A model generated the notes under the pieces. The model saw only the letters and a list, made by a program, of their open reading frames with translations, searched no databases and was not told the origin of the DNA. The translations under genes and the position numbers were made by a program. DNA of 5,058 nt from a bacterium (lineage in GTDB: Bacteria > CG2-30-53-67 > CG2-30-70-394): contig JAJRSX010000134.1 of assembly GCA_024278555.1 (NCBI GenBank), positions 1 through 5,058 of the forward strand. The letters are read 5' to 3'. Shown here piece by piece: positions 204-4,970 of the stretch; the stretch's first letter is position 1; each line of letters starts with the position of its first letter.

Positions 204-1235
204 TCAGCCGCACAGGTCGTGGACGAAGGCCTCCAGGGTGAGGCGGTCGTCGAGGCCGCGCCCCTTGAGCTCCTGGTCCGCCTGCAGGAGGCGGGTGTGG
301 GCGGTGAGGAGGTCTCCCTCGGTGAAGCGGGCGGCGCGCTGGAAGAGCTGGTTGGCGCGGTTGCCGTAGAGGCGCAGCTCCTTGGCGAGCTGCTGTCGCG
401 ACCGGCCGCGGTCGAGGCCGGCGCGGGCGCGGAGGAGCTGGCGGAGCTGCCAGGCGATGAGGCCGAGGAGGCGGATCGGCGCCTCGCCGCCGGCGATGAG
501 GTCGTGGAGGGTGGTGAGCGCCTTGGCCCGGTCGCGGGCGGCAAGGTGGCCGATGAAGGCCCAGGCGTCCGGCAGGGCCGCGGCGGAGACCGCCTCGGCG
601 GTCGCCATCTCCACGGTCCCCCCCTCCTCCACCGCCAGGGCGAGGCGCTGGACCTCCGTCTCCAGACGCGACAGGTCGGTCCCCAGGAGCTCCACCAGGA
701 GCTCGGCGACGCCCCCCCCCAGCCGCACCCCGGCCTCGCCCGCCATCGCCCTGCACCAGGTGGTGGCGTCGCCGCGGCCCACCGCCGTGCACTCCAGGCA
801 GAGGCAAAACTTTTTTAGCGCCTTGGTGAGGCGGGCGCGGCCGTCGAGCTTGTCGGCCACCAGGGCGAGGGTGGTGGTCGGGTTGGGGTCTTTGAGGTAG
901 GCGAGGAGGGGGTCGATGGGGTCGGCGGCGGGCCGGCCGGGCTTCACCTCCTCTTCATCTTCATCGCGTTGCTGCGGCAGCCAGGCGGCCACCCCCTCCA
1001 CCACCACCACCAGGCGCGGGGAGAGCATCGGCAGCGACTGGCAGTGGCCCACCACCTCCGCCGGCTCCACCTCCGCCGCGTCGAGGCGGAGATAGGCGAG
1101 GTCGTCCATCCCCTCCAGGGCGGCGCGGAGTCGGTCGACCGCCCGCCACGCCAGCCGCCGCTCCTCGCCGAGAAGCAGCAGGAGCGGCGGCTCCTTGGGC
1201 TCCTGGTCGCGCAGCCATTGGATCACCGAGGCCAT
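204..1235 (-). CDS. holA: DNA polymerase III, delta subunit (clamp loader)
   Basis: Predicted HolA, the delta subunit of the DNA polymerase III clamp-loader complex. It opens the beta sliding clamp and helps load it on primed DNA. The product is 343 aa from the chosen ATG, the usual family length. Family-like features are the N-terminal strand plus degenerate P-loop region LLLLLGEERRLAW (about 18-30), the PRLVVVVEG strand (73-81), the LGTDLSRLETEVQRLAL helix (184-200), and the C-terminal collar-type helical domain (about 224-343, including AWAFIGHLAARDRAKAL). An upstream ATG at 1307 would add 24 residues, but they do not resemble the family and overlap the DUF4197 relic. The ATG at 1235 places GEE at residue 23, as expected, though its GGGAGG is 16 nt away and is a poor ribosome binding site. 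The gene is separated from pyrC by the relic, so co-transcription with pyr is uncertain. An A AAA AAG heptamer lies at codons 140-142. Confidence 0.86.
   Translation of the reverse strand: MASVIQWLRDQEPKEPPLLLLLGEERRLAWRAVDRLRAALEGMDDLAYLRLDAAEVEPAEVVGHCQSLPMLSPRLVVVVEGVAAWLPQQRDEDEEEVKPGRPAADPIDPLLAYLKDPNPTTTLALVADKLDGRARLTKALKKFCLCLECTAVGRGDATTWCRAMAGEAGVRLGGGVAELLVELLGTDLSRLETEVQRLALAVEEGGTVEMATAEAVSAAALPDAWAFIGHLAARDRAKALTTLHDLIAGGEAPIRLLGLIAWQLRQLLRARAGLDRGRSRQQLAKELRLYGNRANQLFQRAARFTEGDLLTAHTRLLQADQELKGRGLDDRLTLEAFVHDLCG
810..816 (-). other. A AAA AAG slippery heptamer within holA
   Basis: Within holA the codons CTA AAA AAG TTT TGC (818-804) contain A AAA AAG exactly in the zero frame. 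This is the heptamer used for the programmed -1 frameshift in E. coli dnaX. CTA, AAA and TTT stand out in a gene otherwise dominated by G/C-ending codons. An AAGG lies a few nucleotides upstream. Downstream, an imperfect GC-rich stem can form (UGCAC with GUGCA, and GGUGG with CCACC inside it), but it begins about 18 nt after the heptamer, farther than in dnaX. The -1 frame stays open to 109-111 and would give a long Arg/Pro/Gly-rich tail. The motif is directly seen; its use is not shown. Confidence 0.35.
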
Positions 1236-1305
1236 GGGGAGATTGTGCCCGCCTCCCGGCGTGGGTGCCACCGCGACCGGATTCCCCAGAGAGGGCCGCG
1301 TCGCC

Positions 1306-1487
1306 ATGATGAGGCGTCATCAACGGTGTGCCTTCGTCCCCGACGTGAAGGCGAACCTCACCGACTACGTGGTGCAAAAGGGGATGGACGGCATCTTCCT
1401 CTACCTCGTCAACGAGGAGGCGCGATTCGCAAGGACCCGGCACGGCAGACCACCGCCCTGCTGAAGCGGGTCTTCGGCGCCCAGTAG
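1306..1487 (+). pseudogene. DUF4197 protein, frameshifted C-terminal relic
   Basis: Frame 1 encodes FVPDVKANLTDYVVQKGMDGIF (1333-1398) followed by LYLVNEEA, matching the C-terminal segment of DUF4197 proteins, whose function is not known. At about 1423-1424 one base appears to be missing. Continuing in the frame starting at 1425 gives IRKDPARQTTALLKRVFGAQ and a TAG stop at 1485-1487, which is the typical family ending. The two frames together restore an NEEARIRKDPAR-like junction, so this is a single-base deletion or a sequencing error. The much longer N-terminal part of a DUF4197 protein (usually over 150 residues, with a signal peptide) is absent: upstream of about 1306 the sequence is the holA 5' region. 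The relic points away from holA and towards the 3' end of pyrC. Family assignment is from recalled motif similarity. I consider the gene dead even if the frameshift is an error. Confidence 0.7.
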
Positions 1488-1503: not shown

Positions 1504-1530
1504 GAGGTGGGCGCCCGGCACCGTCACCTC
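1504..1530 (-). terminator. Possible hairpin at the pyrC 3' end
   Basis: GAGGTG and CACCTC (1504-1509 and 1525-1530) form a 6-bp stem. An inner GGTG/CGCC stem makes a 10-bp imperfect hairpin overlapping the pyrC stop codon. It sits between convergent pyrC and the DUF4197 relic and reads symmetrically on both strands. No T-run follows on either side, so it is not a classical intrinsic terminator. It may stabilise the 3' end or simply reflect high GC. Confidence 0.3.
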
Positions 1531-2810
1531 GCGTCTGTCACCGCCCCATCGCGGCACACGACCCGGCCGCCGGTGATCGTGTGCAGGGGGCGGCCGGTGA
1601 GCTCCCTGCCCGCCCATGGGCAGTTGCGCGACTTCGAGTAAAACCGCTCCGGCTCCACCCGCCACCGCGCCTCCGGGTCAAAGCAGCAGAGGTCCGCCCG
1701 CGCCCCGACACCGAGGTGGCCTCCGTCGAGGCCGAAGAGGCGGGCGGGGCCGGCGGTGAGGCGGTGGATGAGATCGGCGAGCGAGATCCGTCCCTCGCGC
1801 ACCAGGGCCAGGACCACGCCCAGGCAGGTCTCCAGGCCGATCACCCCGAAGGGGGCGTCGTCGAAGGGGCGCTCCTTCTCCTCCGGCGCGTGCGGCGCGT
1901 GGTCGGTGGCGATCGCCTGGATGGTGCCGTCGGCCAGCGCCGCCACCACCGCCTCTCGGTCGGCGGCGGAGCGCAGGGGCGGGCTCATCTTCCAGTCGGG
2001 GTCGTAGGCGGGCATGTCGGTATCGGTGAGGAGCAGGTGGTGGGGGGTCACCTCGGCGCTCACCAAGAGCCCTGCCCCCTGCGCCCGCCGCACCAGCTCG
2101 ACGCCGCCGGTGGTGGAGAGGTGGGCCACGTGGAGCGGCGTGCCGGTGAGGGCGGAGAGGCGGATGTCGCGGTCGATCTGTACGTCCTCCGCGGCGCTGG
2201 GGATCCCGGCGAGGCCGAGCTCGGTGGCCCGCCACCCCTCGTTCATCACCCCGTGGCCGAAGAGATGGTCGTCTTGCGGATGGATGACCACCGGAATCTC
2301 AAAGGGTTTTGCGTACTCCATCGCGCGACGCATGAGGTGGCTGTCCTGGACGCCGCAGCCGTCGTCGGAGATCGCCACCGCCCCGGCGGTGACCATCTCG
2401 CCGATCTCCGCCAGCGCCTCGCCGGCGAGACCGCGGGTGATCGCCCCCACCGGGAGGATGCGCACCGGGCCGTCGGCGGCGCGCTCGACCATGTCGCGGG
2501 TGATCGCGCCGGTGTCGTTGGTGGGCAGGGTATTGGGCATGCAGCAGACGGTGGTGAAGCCGCCCGCCGCCGCCGCCCGGCCGCCGGAGAGGAGGTCCTC
2601 CTTCCACTCCTGCCCCGGATCGCGCAGGTGGACGTGGAGGTCGATCAGGCCGGGGCAGACCACCAGGCCGGTACAGTCGATCGACTCGGCGCCGTCGAGG
2701 CCATCGCCGAGGGCGGCGATGCGGCCGTGGCGGATGGCGATATCGGTGGTGGCATCAATGGCGTGGGCCGGGTCGATGACGCGGCCGTTCTTCAGGACAA
2801 GGTCAGGCAT
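1524..2810 (-). CDS. pyrC: Dihydroorotase, type I (catalytic)
   Basis: Predicted cytoplasmic zinc amidohydrolase that cyclises N-carbamoyl-L-aspartate to dihydroorotate, the third step of UMP synthesis. It is 428 aa, the normal type I length. The signature DLHVHLRDPG (57-66) supplies metal ligands H59 and H61. SDDG (148-151) carries the conserved Asp, H177 lies in VIHPQDD, H230 in HVAHLS, and D303 in ATDHAPHAPEEK (301-312), the second dihydroorotase signature. All ligands are present, so this is not the inactive PyrC' paralogue that pairs with PyrB in pseudomonads. The usual HxED around the third ligand reads HPQD here. The ATG at 2810 begins with the expected MPDLVLKNGRVIDP; only a weak GCGAGC-type ribosome binding site precedes it. 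It is the third gene of the pyr cluster, 185 nt after pyrB, probably reached by read-through, although an internal promoter in the gap is not excluded. Confidence 0.95.
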   Translation of the reverse strand: MPDLVLKNGRVIDPAHAIDATTDIAIRHGRIAALGDGLDGAESIDCTGLVVCPGLIDLHVHLRDPGQEWKEDLLSGGRAAAAGGFTTVCCMPNTLPTNDTGAITRDMVERAADGPVRILPVGAITRGLAGEALAEIGEMVTAGAVAISDDGCGVQDSHLMRRAMEYAKPFEIPVVIHPQDDHLFGHGVMNEGWRATELGLAGIPSAAEDVQIDRDIRLSALTGTPLHVAHLSTTGGVELVRRAQGAGLLVSAEVTPHHLLLTDTDMPAYDPDWKMSPPLRSAADREAVVAALADGTIQAIATDHAPHAPEEKERPFDDAPFGVIGLETCLGVVLALVREGRISLADLIHRLTAGPARLFGLDGGHLGVGARADLCCFDPEARWRVEPERFYSKSRNCPWAGRELTGRPLHTITGGRVVCRDGAVTDAR

Positions 2811-2981: not shown

Positions 2982-3009
2982 CTACTGGCCACTGTCTACT
3001 GGCGACTGC
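2982..3009. repeat. 14-bp tandem repeat overlapping the pyrB stop
   Basis: CTACTGGCCACTGT (2982-2995) and CTACTGGCGACTGC (2996-3009) match at 12 of 14 positions. The second unit contains the pyrB stop codon and encodes the last residues of PyrB, so an intergenic low-complexity repeat appears to have supplied the protein's C-terminal tip. Similar ACTG heptad phrases are common in bacterial intergenic DNA, to my knowledge without a named function. Confidence 0.55.
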
Positions 3010-3964
3010 CGTGTTGCTGCCAGAAGAGGTAGAGGACCGCCATCCGCACCGCCACCCCGGCGGTGACCTGGTCGAGGATGCGCGACTCGGGGCCGTCGGC
3101 CAGGTCGTGGGCGAGCTCGACGCCGCGGTTGATCGGGCCGGGGTGGAGGACCACGCAGCCGGGGGCGGCGAGCGCCAGGTGGCTCCGGGTGAGGCAGTAG
3201 TTGTGGGCGTACTCGCGCAGGGAGGGGAAGGCGCCGCCGCCCTGCCGCTCGCGCTGGATGCGCAGCATCATGATCGCATCGACCCCCTCGATGGCGTCGG
3301 CCATCCGGTAGAAGACCCGGCAGCCGTAACGCTCCACCGCCGCCGGCAGGAGGGTGGGGGGGGCGCAGACGCGGGTCTCGACCCCCAGGGTTCGCATCGC
3401 CAGGAGGTTCGAGCGGGCGACCCGCGAGTGGGTGATGTCGCCGACGATCGCCACCTTCAACCCGGAGAGCCGCCCGAGGGCGCGGCGCAGGGTGAAGAGG
3501 TCCAGGAGGGCCTGGGTCGGGTGGGCGTGGCAGCCGTCGCCGGCGTTGATCACCGGCACCTCCAGCTCGTGCGCCAGGTAGGCGGCGGCGCCGGAAGCCG
3601 GGTGGCGCACCACGATCAGGTCGGTCCCCATCGCCGCCAGGGTGCGGGCGGTATCGCGCAGGGACTCGCCCTTCTTCAGGGACGACGCCGCGGCGGAGAA
3701 GTTGATCACGTCGGCGGAGAGCCGCTTCCCCGCCAACTCGAAGGAGGAGCGGGTGCGGGTGGAGGGCTCGAAGAAGCAGTCCATGATCGTCGCGCCGCGC
3801 AGGGTCGGCACCTTCTTCACCTGCCGCTCATTGATCTCGTGGAACGACTCCGCCTGATCAAGGAGGAAGCGGATCTCCTTCGCGGTCAGCTCCGCCGTGT
3901 CGAGGAGATCGGTGTGGGCGAAGGGGAGCGCCTTGGGGGCAGGGGTATCGATTGTCTCGGCCAT
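2996..3964 (-). CDS. pyrB: Aspartate carbamoyltransferase catalytic chain
   Basis: Predicted cytoplasmic enzyme joining carbamoyl phosphate and L-aspartate to give N-carbamoyl-aspartate, the committed step of pyrimidine synthesis. It is 322 aa, normal for the family. Motifs in order are FFEPSTRTRSSFE (64-76), whose STRTR binds carbamoyl phosphate; SLKKGES (95-101) with the mobile-loop lysine; RHPASGAA (120-127); NAGDGCHAHPTQALLDLFT (140-158); DITHSRVARS (176-185) and MLRIQRER (233-240) for aspartate binding; and LHPGPINRGVE (273-283). The ATG at 3964 is chosen because AGGAGG lies 5 nt upstream. An upstream in-frame start at 4030 would overlap pyrR by about 43 nt and add an unlikely Gly/Arg-rich leader. 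pyrR ends 23 nt upstream. No pyrI follows, so the UTP/CTP control of the E. coli enzyme is not expected. A PyrB-PyrC holoenzyme (class A-like) is possible from the linkage but is inference. Confidence 0.95.
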   Translation of the reverse strand: MAETIDTPAPKALPFAHTDLLDTAELTAKEIRFLLDQAESFHEINERQVKKVPTLRGATIMDCFFEPSTRTRSSFELAGKRLSADVINFSAAASSLKKGESLRDTARTLAAMGTDLIVVRHPASGAAAYLAHELEVPVINAGDGCHAHPTQALLDLFTLRRALGRLSGLKVAIVGDITHSRVARSNLLAMRTLGVETRVCAPPTLLPAAVERYGCRVFYRMADAIEGVDAIMMLRIQRERQGGGAFPSLREYAHNYCLTRSHLALAAPGCVVLHPGPINRGVELAHDLADGPESRILDQVTAGVAVRMAVLYLFWQQHGSRQ

Positions 3965-3987: not shown

Positions 3988-4563
3988 CTACGCCCCGCCC
4001 TCGCCCGCCTCCGGCAGGGCCATCACGCACACCGCATCCTCGGCCTCCCCGTCCTCGACGAAGCGGACCCGGATCGTCTCGGTCGTGGTGGTGGGGAGGT
4101 TCTTGCCCACATAGTCGGCCCGGATCGGGAGCTCGCGATGGCCCCGGTCCACCAACACCGCCAGCTCGATCCGCGCCGGCCGCCCCAGGGCCATGAGCCC
4201 CTCCAGGGCGGCGCGCACCGAGCGGCCGGTGTAGAGCACATCGTCCACCACGACCACCACCGCCCCATCCATGTCGATGGGGATCTCGGTGCGCACCAGC
4301 TCGGGGTAGTCGGAGCGGTCGCGTAGATCGTCACGGTAGAGGGTGATATCCAGCGTCCCCACCGCCACCGGCGTCTCGGCGATCTCCCCGATCCGCGCGG
4401 CGAGCCGGTGGGCCAGGTGGCTGCCACGCTGGCGGATCCCCACCAGGACGACCTTGGTGAGGACCTCGTGCGCCTCGACGATCTCGTGCGCCATCCGCGA
4501 GATCGTGCGGCGGAAGGCCGGCCCGGCAAGGGGCCGGGCGATCTCGACGCGCGGCTCCTCCAC
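3988..4563 (-). CDS. pyrR: PyrR: pyrimidine operon regulator / uracil phosphoribosyltransferase
   Basis: Predicted PyrR, an RNA-binding member of the type I phosphoribosyltransferase fold. When bound to UMP/UTP it recognises a hairpin in pyr mRNA; many homologues also convert uracil and PRPP to UMP. It is 191 aa, slightly longer than the usual 170-185. The PRPP loop VVVDDVLYTGRSV lies at 104-116 and the PyrR hallmark LVDRGHRELPIRADYVGKNLP at about 137-157. The N-terminal helix FRRTISRMAHEIVE (17-30) also fits the family. The only start codon available before this helix is GTG at 4563: the frame is open back to a TGA at 4657-4659 but has no ATG, GTG or TTG. The GTG lies 2 nt after the stop of a leader ORF and lacks a strong ribosome binding site, which suggests coupled translation. 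A PyrR-binding-loop hairpin sits 80 nt upstream, so autoregulation of pyrR-pyrB-pyrC is likely. Confidence 0.93.
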   Translation of the reverse strand: MEEPRVEIARPLAGPAFRRTISRMAHEIVEAHEVLTKVVLVGIRQRGSHLAHRLAARIGEIAETPVAVGTLDITLYRDDLRDRSDYPELVRTEIPIDMDGAVVVVVDDVLYTGRSVRAALEGLMALGRPARIELAVLVDRGHRELPIRADYVGKNLPTTTTETIRVRFVEDGEAEDAVCVMALPEAGEGGA

Positions 4564-4565
4564 CC

Positions 4566-4637
4566 CTACCGCCCCCCCGAGAACAGCTCCCCCCTGCGCA
4601 CCGAGACCCGGGGAGGGGAGAGGAGAACCACCTGCAT
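4566..4637 (-). CDS. Possible 23-aa leader peptide upstream of pyrR
   Basis: A short ORF starts with ATG at 4637, encodes a peptide beginning MQVVLLSPPRVSV and ending FSGGR, and stops with TAG at 4568-4566, 2 nt before the pyrR GTG. AAGGG (4649-4645) lies 7 nt upstream of the ATG, a good ribosome-binding distance. Those bases form the 3' strand of the lower stem of the predicted PyrR-binding loop, so bound PyrR could hide the site. The peptide has no recognised family. Its role would be to carry ribosomes to the weak pyrR start. The inference rests on spacing and arrangement only; chance is possible in GC-rich DNA with few stops. Confidence 0.4.
   Translation of the reverse strand: MQVVLLSPPRVSVRRGELFSGGR
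4587..4620 (-). promoter_or_regulatory. Possible secondary hairpin in the pyrR leader
   Basis: CTCCCCTC (4620-4613) can pair with GGGGGGAG (4594-4587) to form an 8-bp stem, including one G-U pair, around an 18-nt loop. No U-tract follows, so it does not look like an attenuator terminator. The same C-rich strand could instead pair with the G-run just before the pyrR GTG, which would give competing folds that hide or expose the pyrR start. Confidence 0.25.
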
Positions 4638-4642
4638 GGACA

Positions 4643-4679
4643 CACCCTTTCGGGCCTCACAGGACCCAGTTGAAGAGTG
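4643..4679 (-). promoter_or_regulatory. PyrR-binding loop (RNA hairpin) in the pyr leader
   Basis: Read on the minus strand, the RNA has a lower stem CACUCUU (4679-4673) paired with AAGGGUG (4649-4643), an internal bulge of CAACU on the 5' side and GA on the 3' side, an upper stem GGGUC (4667-4663) paired with GGCCC (4656-4652), and a terminal hexaloop CUGUGA (4662-4657). The hexaloop fits the CNGNGA consensus known for PyrR-binding loops in Bacillus and relatives, and UCCNGNGAGG is intact. Both stems are fully paired if G-U pairs are allowed. It lies at the predicted 5' end of the transcript, 80 nt upstream of pyrR itself. With UMP/UTP, PyrR would bind here. Because no clear terminator follows and the lower stem holds a Shine-Dalgarno-like AAGGG, translational repression, as described in mycobacteria, fits better than attenuation. 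Confidence 0.78.
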
Positions 4680-4684
4680 GCGCG

Positions 4685-4713
4685 ACGCTACGACCGGGGT
4701 AAGGCGGTGTCAA
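4685..4713 (-). promoter_or_regulatory. Sigma70-type promoter of the pyr operon
   Basis: On the minus strand, TTGACA (4713-4708, perfect -35) is followed by a 17-nt spacer and TAGCGT (4690-4685), a weak -10 that keeps TA and the final T. The expected start is A4678, seven bases after the -10, essentially the first bases of the PyrR-binding loop. The -35 is embedded in a small inverted repeat, GCGGT/ACCGC (4704-4708 and 4713-4717), which could be an operator or coincidence. Confidence 0.6.
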
Positions 4714-4749
4714 CCGCGGCCCGGGGGGCTGGGGCCTGGGGGGCAAAAC

Positions 4750-4776
4750 CACGAAGGGCACGAAAGGCACGAAGGG
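4750..4776. repeat. 9-bp tandem repeat CACGAAGGG, three units
   Basis: CACGAAGGG, CACGAAAGG and CACGAAGGG follow one another, flanked by AAAAC on the left. The reverse complement reads CTTTCGTGCCCTTCGTGG, a phrase type I recognise as scattered in intergenic DNA of many bacteria. It lies upstream of the pyr promoter. The CGTG core also occurs in the inverted repeat near position 180. The GC-rich DNA between here and 4840 shows nothing else I can name. Confidence 0.6.
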
Positions 4777-4838
4777 GAGGGGTTCGGCGGATGGGTCTCC
4801 AACGCGGCGCGGGGAGGGGGGGGCGCGGGAGGGAGATG

Positions 4839-4970
4839 AACGTAGCCTTGGGGTCAGGAACGGAACGTAGCCTTGGGGTCAGTTCTTTATTTTATAGCGT
4901 ATAGCCTTGGGGTCAGTTCTTTATTTTATAGCGTAGCCTTGGAACGCAGCAGAACGTAGCCTTGGGGGTC
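4839..4970. repeat. AT-rich array of GTAGCCTTGGGGTCAG repeats
   Basis: The core GTAGCCTTGG occurs at 4842, 4867, 4933 and 4956, with a variant (ATAGCCTTGG) at 4901. Two copies extend to an identical 32-bp unit (4868-4899 and 4902-4933) running from TAGCCTTGGGGTCAG through an AT-rich TTCTTTATTTTATAGCG. The others are truncated and preceded by AACG. The AT-rich tails contrast with the surrounding GC-rich DNA. Read on the other strand, the unit contains AAAGAACTGACCCC. To my recollection similar phrases accompany REP-associated Y1 transposase genes, but no transposase is in the window, so that link is inference. The array abuts the RNase P RNA fragment exactly where its homology ends. Confidence 0.8.

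Follow-up and report, generated by a model that had tools for sequence, protein, structure and literature searches.

A probable PyrR-binding RNA loop at the 5' end of a pyrRBC cluster in a small bacterial lineage related to Nitrospirota

The DNA analysed here (the window: 5,058 nucleotides, the entire contig of a 3.06-Mb, 211-contig genome) encodes on its minus strand, at positions 4643–4679, a hairpin that is very probably a real PyrR-binding loop, its binding of PyrR being predicted from sequence. The switch belongs to a known type; its host here is a small bacterial group with kinship to Nitrospirota, outside the Proteobacteria. As to how it works, we lean towards a reading in which the loop gates translation of a 23-codon leader ORF and pyrR follows by translational coupling.

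The hairpin, its gene context and its protein partner

The gene cluster runs pyrR–pyrB–pyrC, and the hairpin lies 80 nt upstream of the pyrR start, in the 5' leader of the pyr operon. pyrR (3988–4563, minus strand) has a GTG start and encodes 191 aa; its product matches NF003549 with E 1.7e-63 and 213.4 bits, above the curated cut-off of 138, and its relatives in the PDB are PyrR proteins, the best match having a value of 1.1e-52. pyrB (aspartate carbamoyltransferase; 2996–3964, minus strand; NF002032, E 6.2e-122) and pyrC (dihydroorotase; 1524–2810, minus strand; TIGR00857, E 6.2e-122) also score above their cut-offs, and holA (204–1307, minus strand; curated family match) comes after pyrC. 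The first-pass annotation had placed a PyrR loop upstream of pyrR, and the gene is indeed a genuine pyrR at the head of a pyrRBC cluster.

Read from 4679 to 4643, the minus-strand RNA forms a lower stem of 7 bp (CACUCUU with AAGGGUG; 4679–4673/4649–4643), an asymmetric 5/2 internal loop (CAACU and GA; 4672–4668/4651–4650), an upper stem of 5 bp that includes the conserved U-G (GGGUC with GGCCC; 4667–4663/4656–4652) and the hexaloop CUGUGA (4662–4657), which fits CNGNGA. The isolated 37-nt loop folds in this way at -15.1 kcal/mol, and 5 of 200 shuffles fold equally well. The two stems, asymmetric bulge and hexaloop described in the first-pass annotation are thus borne out by both sequence and fold.

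The scan with the Rfam model RF00515 that had been proposed as a check gave a divided answer: the model aligns over its full length at 4680–4579 (minus strand), but with 30.1 bits against a gathering score of 54. This model includes the Bacillus-type terminator half, and 54 bits is one model's score threshold, not a structural feature; hence we claim membership for the binding loop and not for the whole RF00515 attenuator. Because whole genomes of the window's phylum contain many scattered RF00515 matches of 18–28 bits, we set this model aside as evidence on its own. With the Bacillus pyr attenuators that RF00515 describes, the window shares the CNGNGA hexaloop, the upper-stem U-G, an asymmetric purine-containing internal loop, the AAGG of the 3' arm and the position 5' of pyrR; it differs in the lack of a demonstrable antiterminator or U-tract terminator, in a leader ORF that begins 8 nt past the 3' arm, and in its sub-threshold score. 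The core consensus published for PyrR sites is ARUCCAGAGAGGYU (PMC7430163). Matches in the window to RF03033, RF01549 and RF01274 have E of 2–7 and are attributed to chance.

A model of the loop alone (R1) was built from 59 ungapped loops at PyrR loci in named genomes of other phyla, none of them from the window's phylum; the loop was found upstream of most of the PyrR loci gathered there. In its alignment 93.6% of cells are paired (85.0% in shuffles), and 61 cells show two-sided changes (20 in shuffles). Over the whole genome of the window, R1 has a single match with E<=10, at 4680–4642 on the minus strand (33.3 bits, E 0.0023), directly 5' of pyrR. Over the only other genome of the genus it again has a single match, of 31.3 bits, at the equivalent place. 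A lone genome-wide match exactly 5' of pyrR in each of two genomes cannot be put down to chance. At the pyrR genes of the sister family, R1 finds no loop in 6 of 6 genomes.

The PyrR proteins of the two congeners are 86% identical, and their loops differ at four stem positions, where the changes from the window to the same-genus genome (A-U to G-U, U-G to C-G, U-G to U-A and G-C to G-U) all preserve pairing (4/4, with only two genomes of the genus). The single hexaloop change, CUGUGA to CCGUGA, falls at the first N of CNGNGA. Both checks proposed with the original claim, compensatory stem changes and conservation of the hexaloop, therefore came out in its favour; pair-preserving changes between two genomes are support, not proof, and they agree with the consensus built on other phyla.

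The protein is consistent with the same reading. In Bacillus subtilis numbering, inferred via the aligned B. paralicheniformis protein, the window's PyrR retains R15, R19, H22, H140, K152 and N153 (6/6), which we take, after Savacool and Switzer 2002, to belong to the RNA-binding surface. The full set R19, H22, K152 and N153 occurs in all 42 PyrRs that have a loop and in 6 of the 24 for which no loop was detected (Fisher p 2e-11, uncorrected for phylogeny), and R15 and H140 show the same trend. In the sister family, which lacks the loop, R15, H22 and N153 are gone from 6/6 genomes and R19 and K152 from 5/6, and the set of four occurs together in 0/6. The consensus-loop reading thus finds its presumed RNA-contact residues kept in the window. 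That the sister family lost particular PyrR residues along with the loop provides a natural experiment on which residues recognise the RNA. According to a published report, PyrR contacts RNA with a concave, basic surface (PMC7430163).

Upstream of pyrR, the six sister-family loci have a short leader ORF in place of the loop. In 5/6 the end of this leader, ..RPSC and a stop codon, falls within a strong intrinsic terminator (AGGCCTTCTTGCTGAT..GCAAGAGGCCTTTTTT), an arrangement that accompanies the loss of the PyrR RNA-contact residues and is reminiscent of pyrBI-type translation-coupled attenuation.

The leader ORF and competing mechanisms

The likely pyr promoter has an exact -35 box TTGACA (4708–4713, minus strand), a 17-nt spacer and, by inspection, a putative -10 box TAGCGT (4685–4690, minus strand; TAGCTT in the same-genus genome, which has the same layout). 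A consensus promoter scan passes over the TTGACA promoter because its -10 matches at only 3/6 positions. Transcription would start at about 4680–4677, at the foot of the hairpin.

The AAGG at 4646–4649 (minus strand) lies in the lower stem, as part of its 3' arm, and doubles as the candidate Shine–Dalgarno sequence of a leader ORF, whose AUG follows 8 nt later in both the window and the same-genus genome. It is a weak Shine–Dalgarno sequence as well as a structural part of every PyrR loop, and in the predicted 5' RNA its mean unpaired probability is 0.09. The ORF (4566–4637, minus strand; 23 codons, MQVVLLSPPRVSVRRGELFSGGR and a stop) is open in both congeners and is putatively coding. Its stop lies 2 nt before the pyrR GTG; the same-genus leader (MAVLLSPPRVVVRTGEVFPAGRS and a stop) ends on GTGA and overlaps the pyrR start. 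The two leaders differ by an in-frame 3-nt indel, and the stop adjoins pyrR in both regardless. Base changes in the leader fall at third positions in 5 of 13 cases, which is not clearly the pattern of a coding sequence, and ORFs of 23 codons are nothing unusual where DNA is G+C-rich; coding status is judged on a small sample, since only two genomes carry this exact leader. pyrR itself has no convincing ribosome-binding site.

In the mechanism we favour, the pyrRBC mRNA would begin with the PyrR-binding loop. At high UMP/UTP, PyrR–UMP would bind and lock the hairpin and hide the AAGG; because this AAGG of the leader ORF lies in the 3' arm of the loop, leader translation would be blocked. Translation of pyrR would then fall through lost translational coupling, since the leader stop abuts or overlaps the pyrR GTG and pyrR has no convincing ribosome site of its own, and the untranslated pyr mRNA may also terminate early. 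At low UMP, the leader would be translated and ribosomes would pass on to pyrR. Of this scheme, the loop with its position, uniqueness and conservation, the spacing from AAGG to AUG, the leader ORF in two genomes and the kept PyrR residues are observed. We infer that PyrR–UMP binds, that the leader is translated and coupled to pyrR, and which way regulation runs, binding and sign from what holds for the family. Folding lends no structural support to the coupling step: the complete leader gains nothing in fold stability over shuffles (z +1.37), and a shuffled leader body occludes the pyrR start equally well, which leaves leader-specific occlusion of that start unsupported. Translational repression by PyrR was reportedly described by Fields and Switzer in 2007 for Mycobacterium smegmatis and actinobacteria. 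There, as here, the ribosome-binding site overlaps the 3' arm of the loop, so that PyrR binding would block translation, but it belongs to pyrR itself, whereas in the window a leader ORF intervenes.

The output could instead be transcriptional. For Thermus strain ZO5, Van de Casteele et al. are said to have proposed in 1997 that leader translation decides pyr expression, a translating ribosome preventing a terminator from forming. The order pyrR–pyrB–pyrC and a PyrR site upstream of a leader are common to that system and the window. On this model PyrR would again block leader translation, with an intrinsic terminator in the leader ORF as the output; the leader ORFs of Nitrospirota and Methylomirabilota do cross a terminator-typical U-run (peptides ..GEEVFLC.. 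and ..RFFCAF..), and at the equivalent place the window's leader has a strong C/G stem, a G+C-rich, terminator-like hairpin at 4585–4618 (minus strand; CUCUCCCCUCCCC.../...GGGGGGAG) apparent from the RF00515 alignment and from folding. The Thermus proposal needs a terminator, however, and this stem has no U-tract: it is followed only by CUGUUCUC / GUGUUCCC, no run of five T occurs between loop and pyrR in the window or the same-genus genome, and a terminator scan of the window returned 0 intrinsic terminators. We regard this alternative as unlikely, and the lack of a U-run in the window's genus favours blocked leader translation with lost coupling over intrinsic attenuation.

The same lack weighs on classical Bacillus attenuation, in which the PyrR-stabilised loop would be an anti-antiterminator, pairing between the loop and downstream sequence would otherwise prevent the terminator, and the leader ORF would be incidental. 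RF00515 aligns through the terminator stem, and in the window's genome the loop segment GAGGCCCG can pair with downstream CGGGUCUC, 80–90-nt transcripts folding into such an alternative. A possible competing pairing is therefore present, but its downstream complement is reduced in the same-genus genome (5 bp by inspection) and the RF00515 score is below gathering; with no U-tract terminator to complete the attenuator, we consider this model distinctly improbable. It is harder still to credit that the hairpin is a chance structure or a decayed relic with no role. Two scores speak for it, since R1 reaches no better than E 0.0023 over the whole genome and RF00515 stays below its threshold. But the match is the sole one in the genome, lies exactly 5' of pyrR and is kept in the congener with pair-preserving changes, and residues that are lost from loopless PyrRs are retained in that of the window.

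Lineage, distribution and leader geometry in other phyla

The genome had been called probably proteobacterial, which does not hold. A search of its phylum covered 8 genomes, a number that excludes Pseudomonadota, and in an RpoB tree the window's lineage and the sister family group beside Nitrospirota, with E. coli outside. PyrR loops are common in Nitrospirota and in Methylomirabilota: at E<=0.01, R1 has matches in 76 of the 118 Nitrospirota genomes sampled and in 49 of 60 from Methylomirabilota, nearly always one per genome, and pyrR lies downstream of the loop in 28 of the 30 Nitrospirota loci whose neighbouring DNA was examined. Loops also occur at named loci of Omnitrophota, Armatimonadota, Chloroflexota, Ignavibacteria, Actinomycetota and Bacillota. 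In a 2013 survey with Rfam models the PyrR motif already counted as moderately distributed (PMC3766115). A paper on Geobacter from 2009 lists a 35-nt conserved sequence 5' of pyrRBC-carAB (PMC2700814), which may be identical in kind to the PyrR loop. Since the loop is common in Nitrospirota and Methylomirabilota, that of the window extends a known system. The idea that it would carry RNA-based PyrR control into a new lineage stands for one small lineage, with less novelty than was supposed. The result does place such control in a phylum that stands beside Nitrospirota and has received little study. It also shows the loop to be common among uncultured phyla, to whose loops an Rfam model tied to the Bacillus terminator gives low scores.

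We scored leader geometry as a start codon 6–10 nt after the AAGG of the loop. This holds for 25 of 30 Nitrospirota loci (p 2.7e-18) and 11 of 15 Methylomirabilota loci (p 1.2e-10), both far above chance when shared ancestry is ignored, and for 0/6 in Chloroflexota and 0/9 in Actinomycetota; in Streptomyces the pyrR AUG is 13 nt after the AAGG. In Nitrospirota and Methylomirabilota the ORF that follows the loop is pyrR at some loci and at others a leader, which for the most part crosses a U-run terminator; this leader-ORF design resembles the proposal for Thermus. These loops resemble the window's in number (about one per genome), in the AUG or GUG 6–10 nt after the AAGG and in what follows it, leader ORF or pyrR; they differ in that their leader ORFs usually cross a U-run, and the leader peptides are unrelated in sequence. 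The geometry suggests that a leader-ORF form of PyrR control is widespread in the two phyla, and that leader-peptide gating may be a widespread mode of PyrR action.

Where a leader is present at these loci (L169–L213), it mostly encodes FF or VFL at the terminator U-run, as in GEEVFLCPEVV and SGGRFFCAF. At loci L203, L204, L207–L209, L212, L182, L184 and L196 (Methylomirabilota and Nitrospirota), the pyrR start itself is 7–10 nt after the AAGG with no T-run, and direct translational repression of pyrR is likely in this part of both phyla.

A wider history can be offered tentatively, with slightly less than even confidence. In Nitrospirota, Methylomirabilota, Omnitrophota and the window's phylum, PyrR would mainly gate a leader ORF that has its ribosome site within the loop; the window's genus would have dropped the terminator and come to rely on coupling from the leader stop to pyrR; and the sister family would have lost the loop together with the RNA-contact residues and moved to a PyrR-independent leader-peptide attenuator.

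Flanking DNA

Beyond the promoter, a 9-bp repeat, CACGAAGGG, occupies 4743–4780 of the window, and about 30 nt of it recurs on contig C22 of the same genome at 97% identity. A tandem array with a 34-bp period (CGTAGCCTTGGGGTCAGTTCTTTATTTTATAG) lies at 4844–4942 on the plus strand; AGCCTTGGGGTCAG is present in three copies in this array and once elsewhere in the genome (contig C198). At the contig end, 4967–5058 on the minus strand is a partial second copy of rnpB, 92 nt long, which matches the 5' part of the complete gene (contig C48:11483–11862) at 97.8% identity; it breaks off into repeats and may be a duplication or an assembly artefact.
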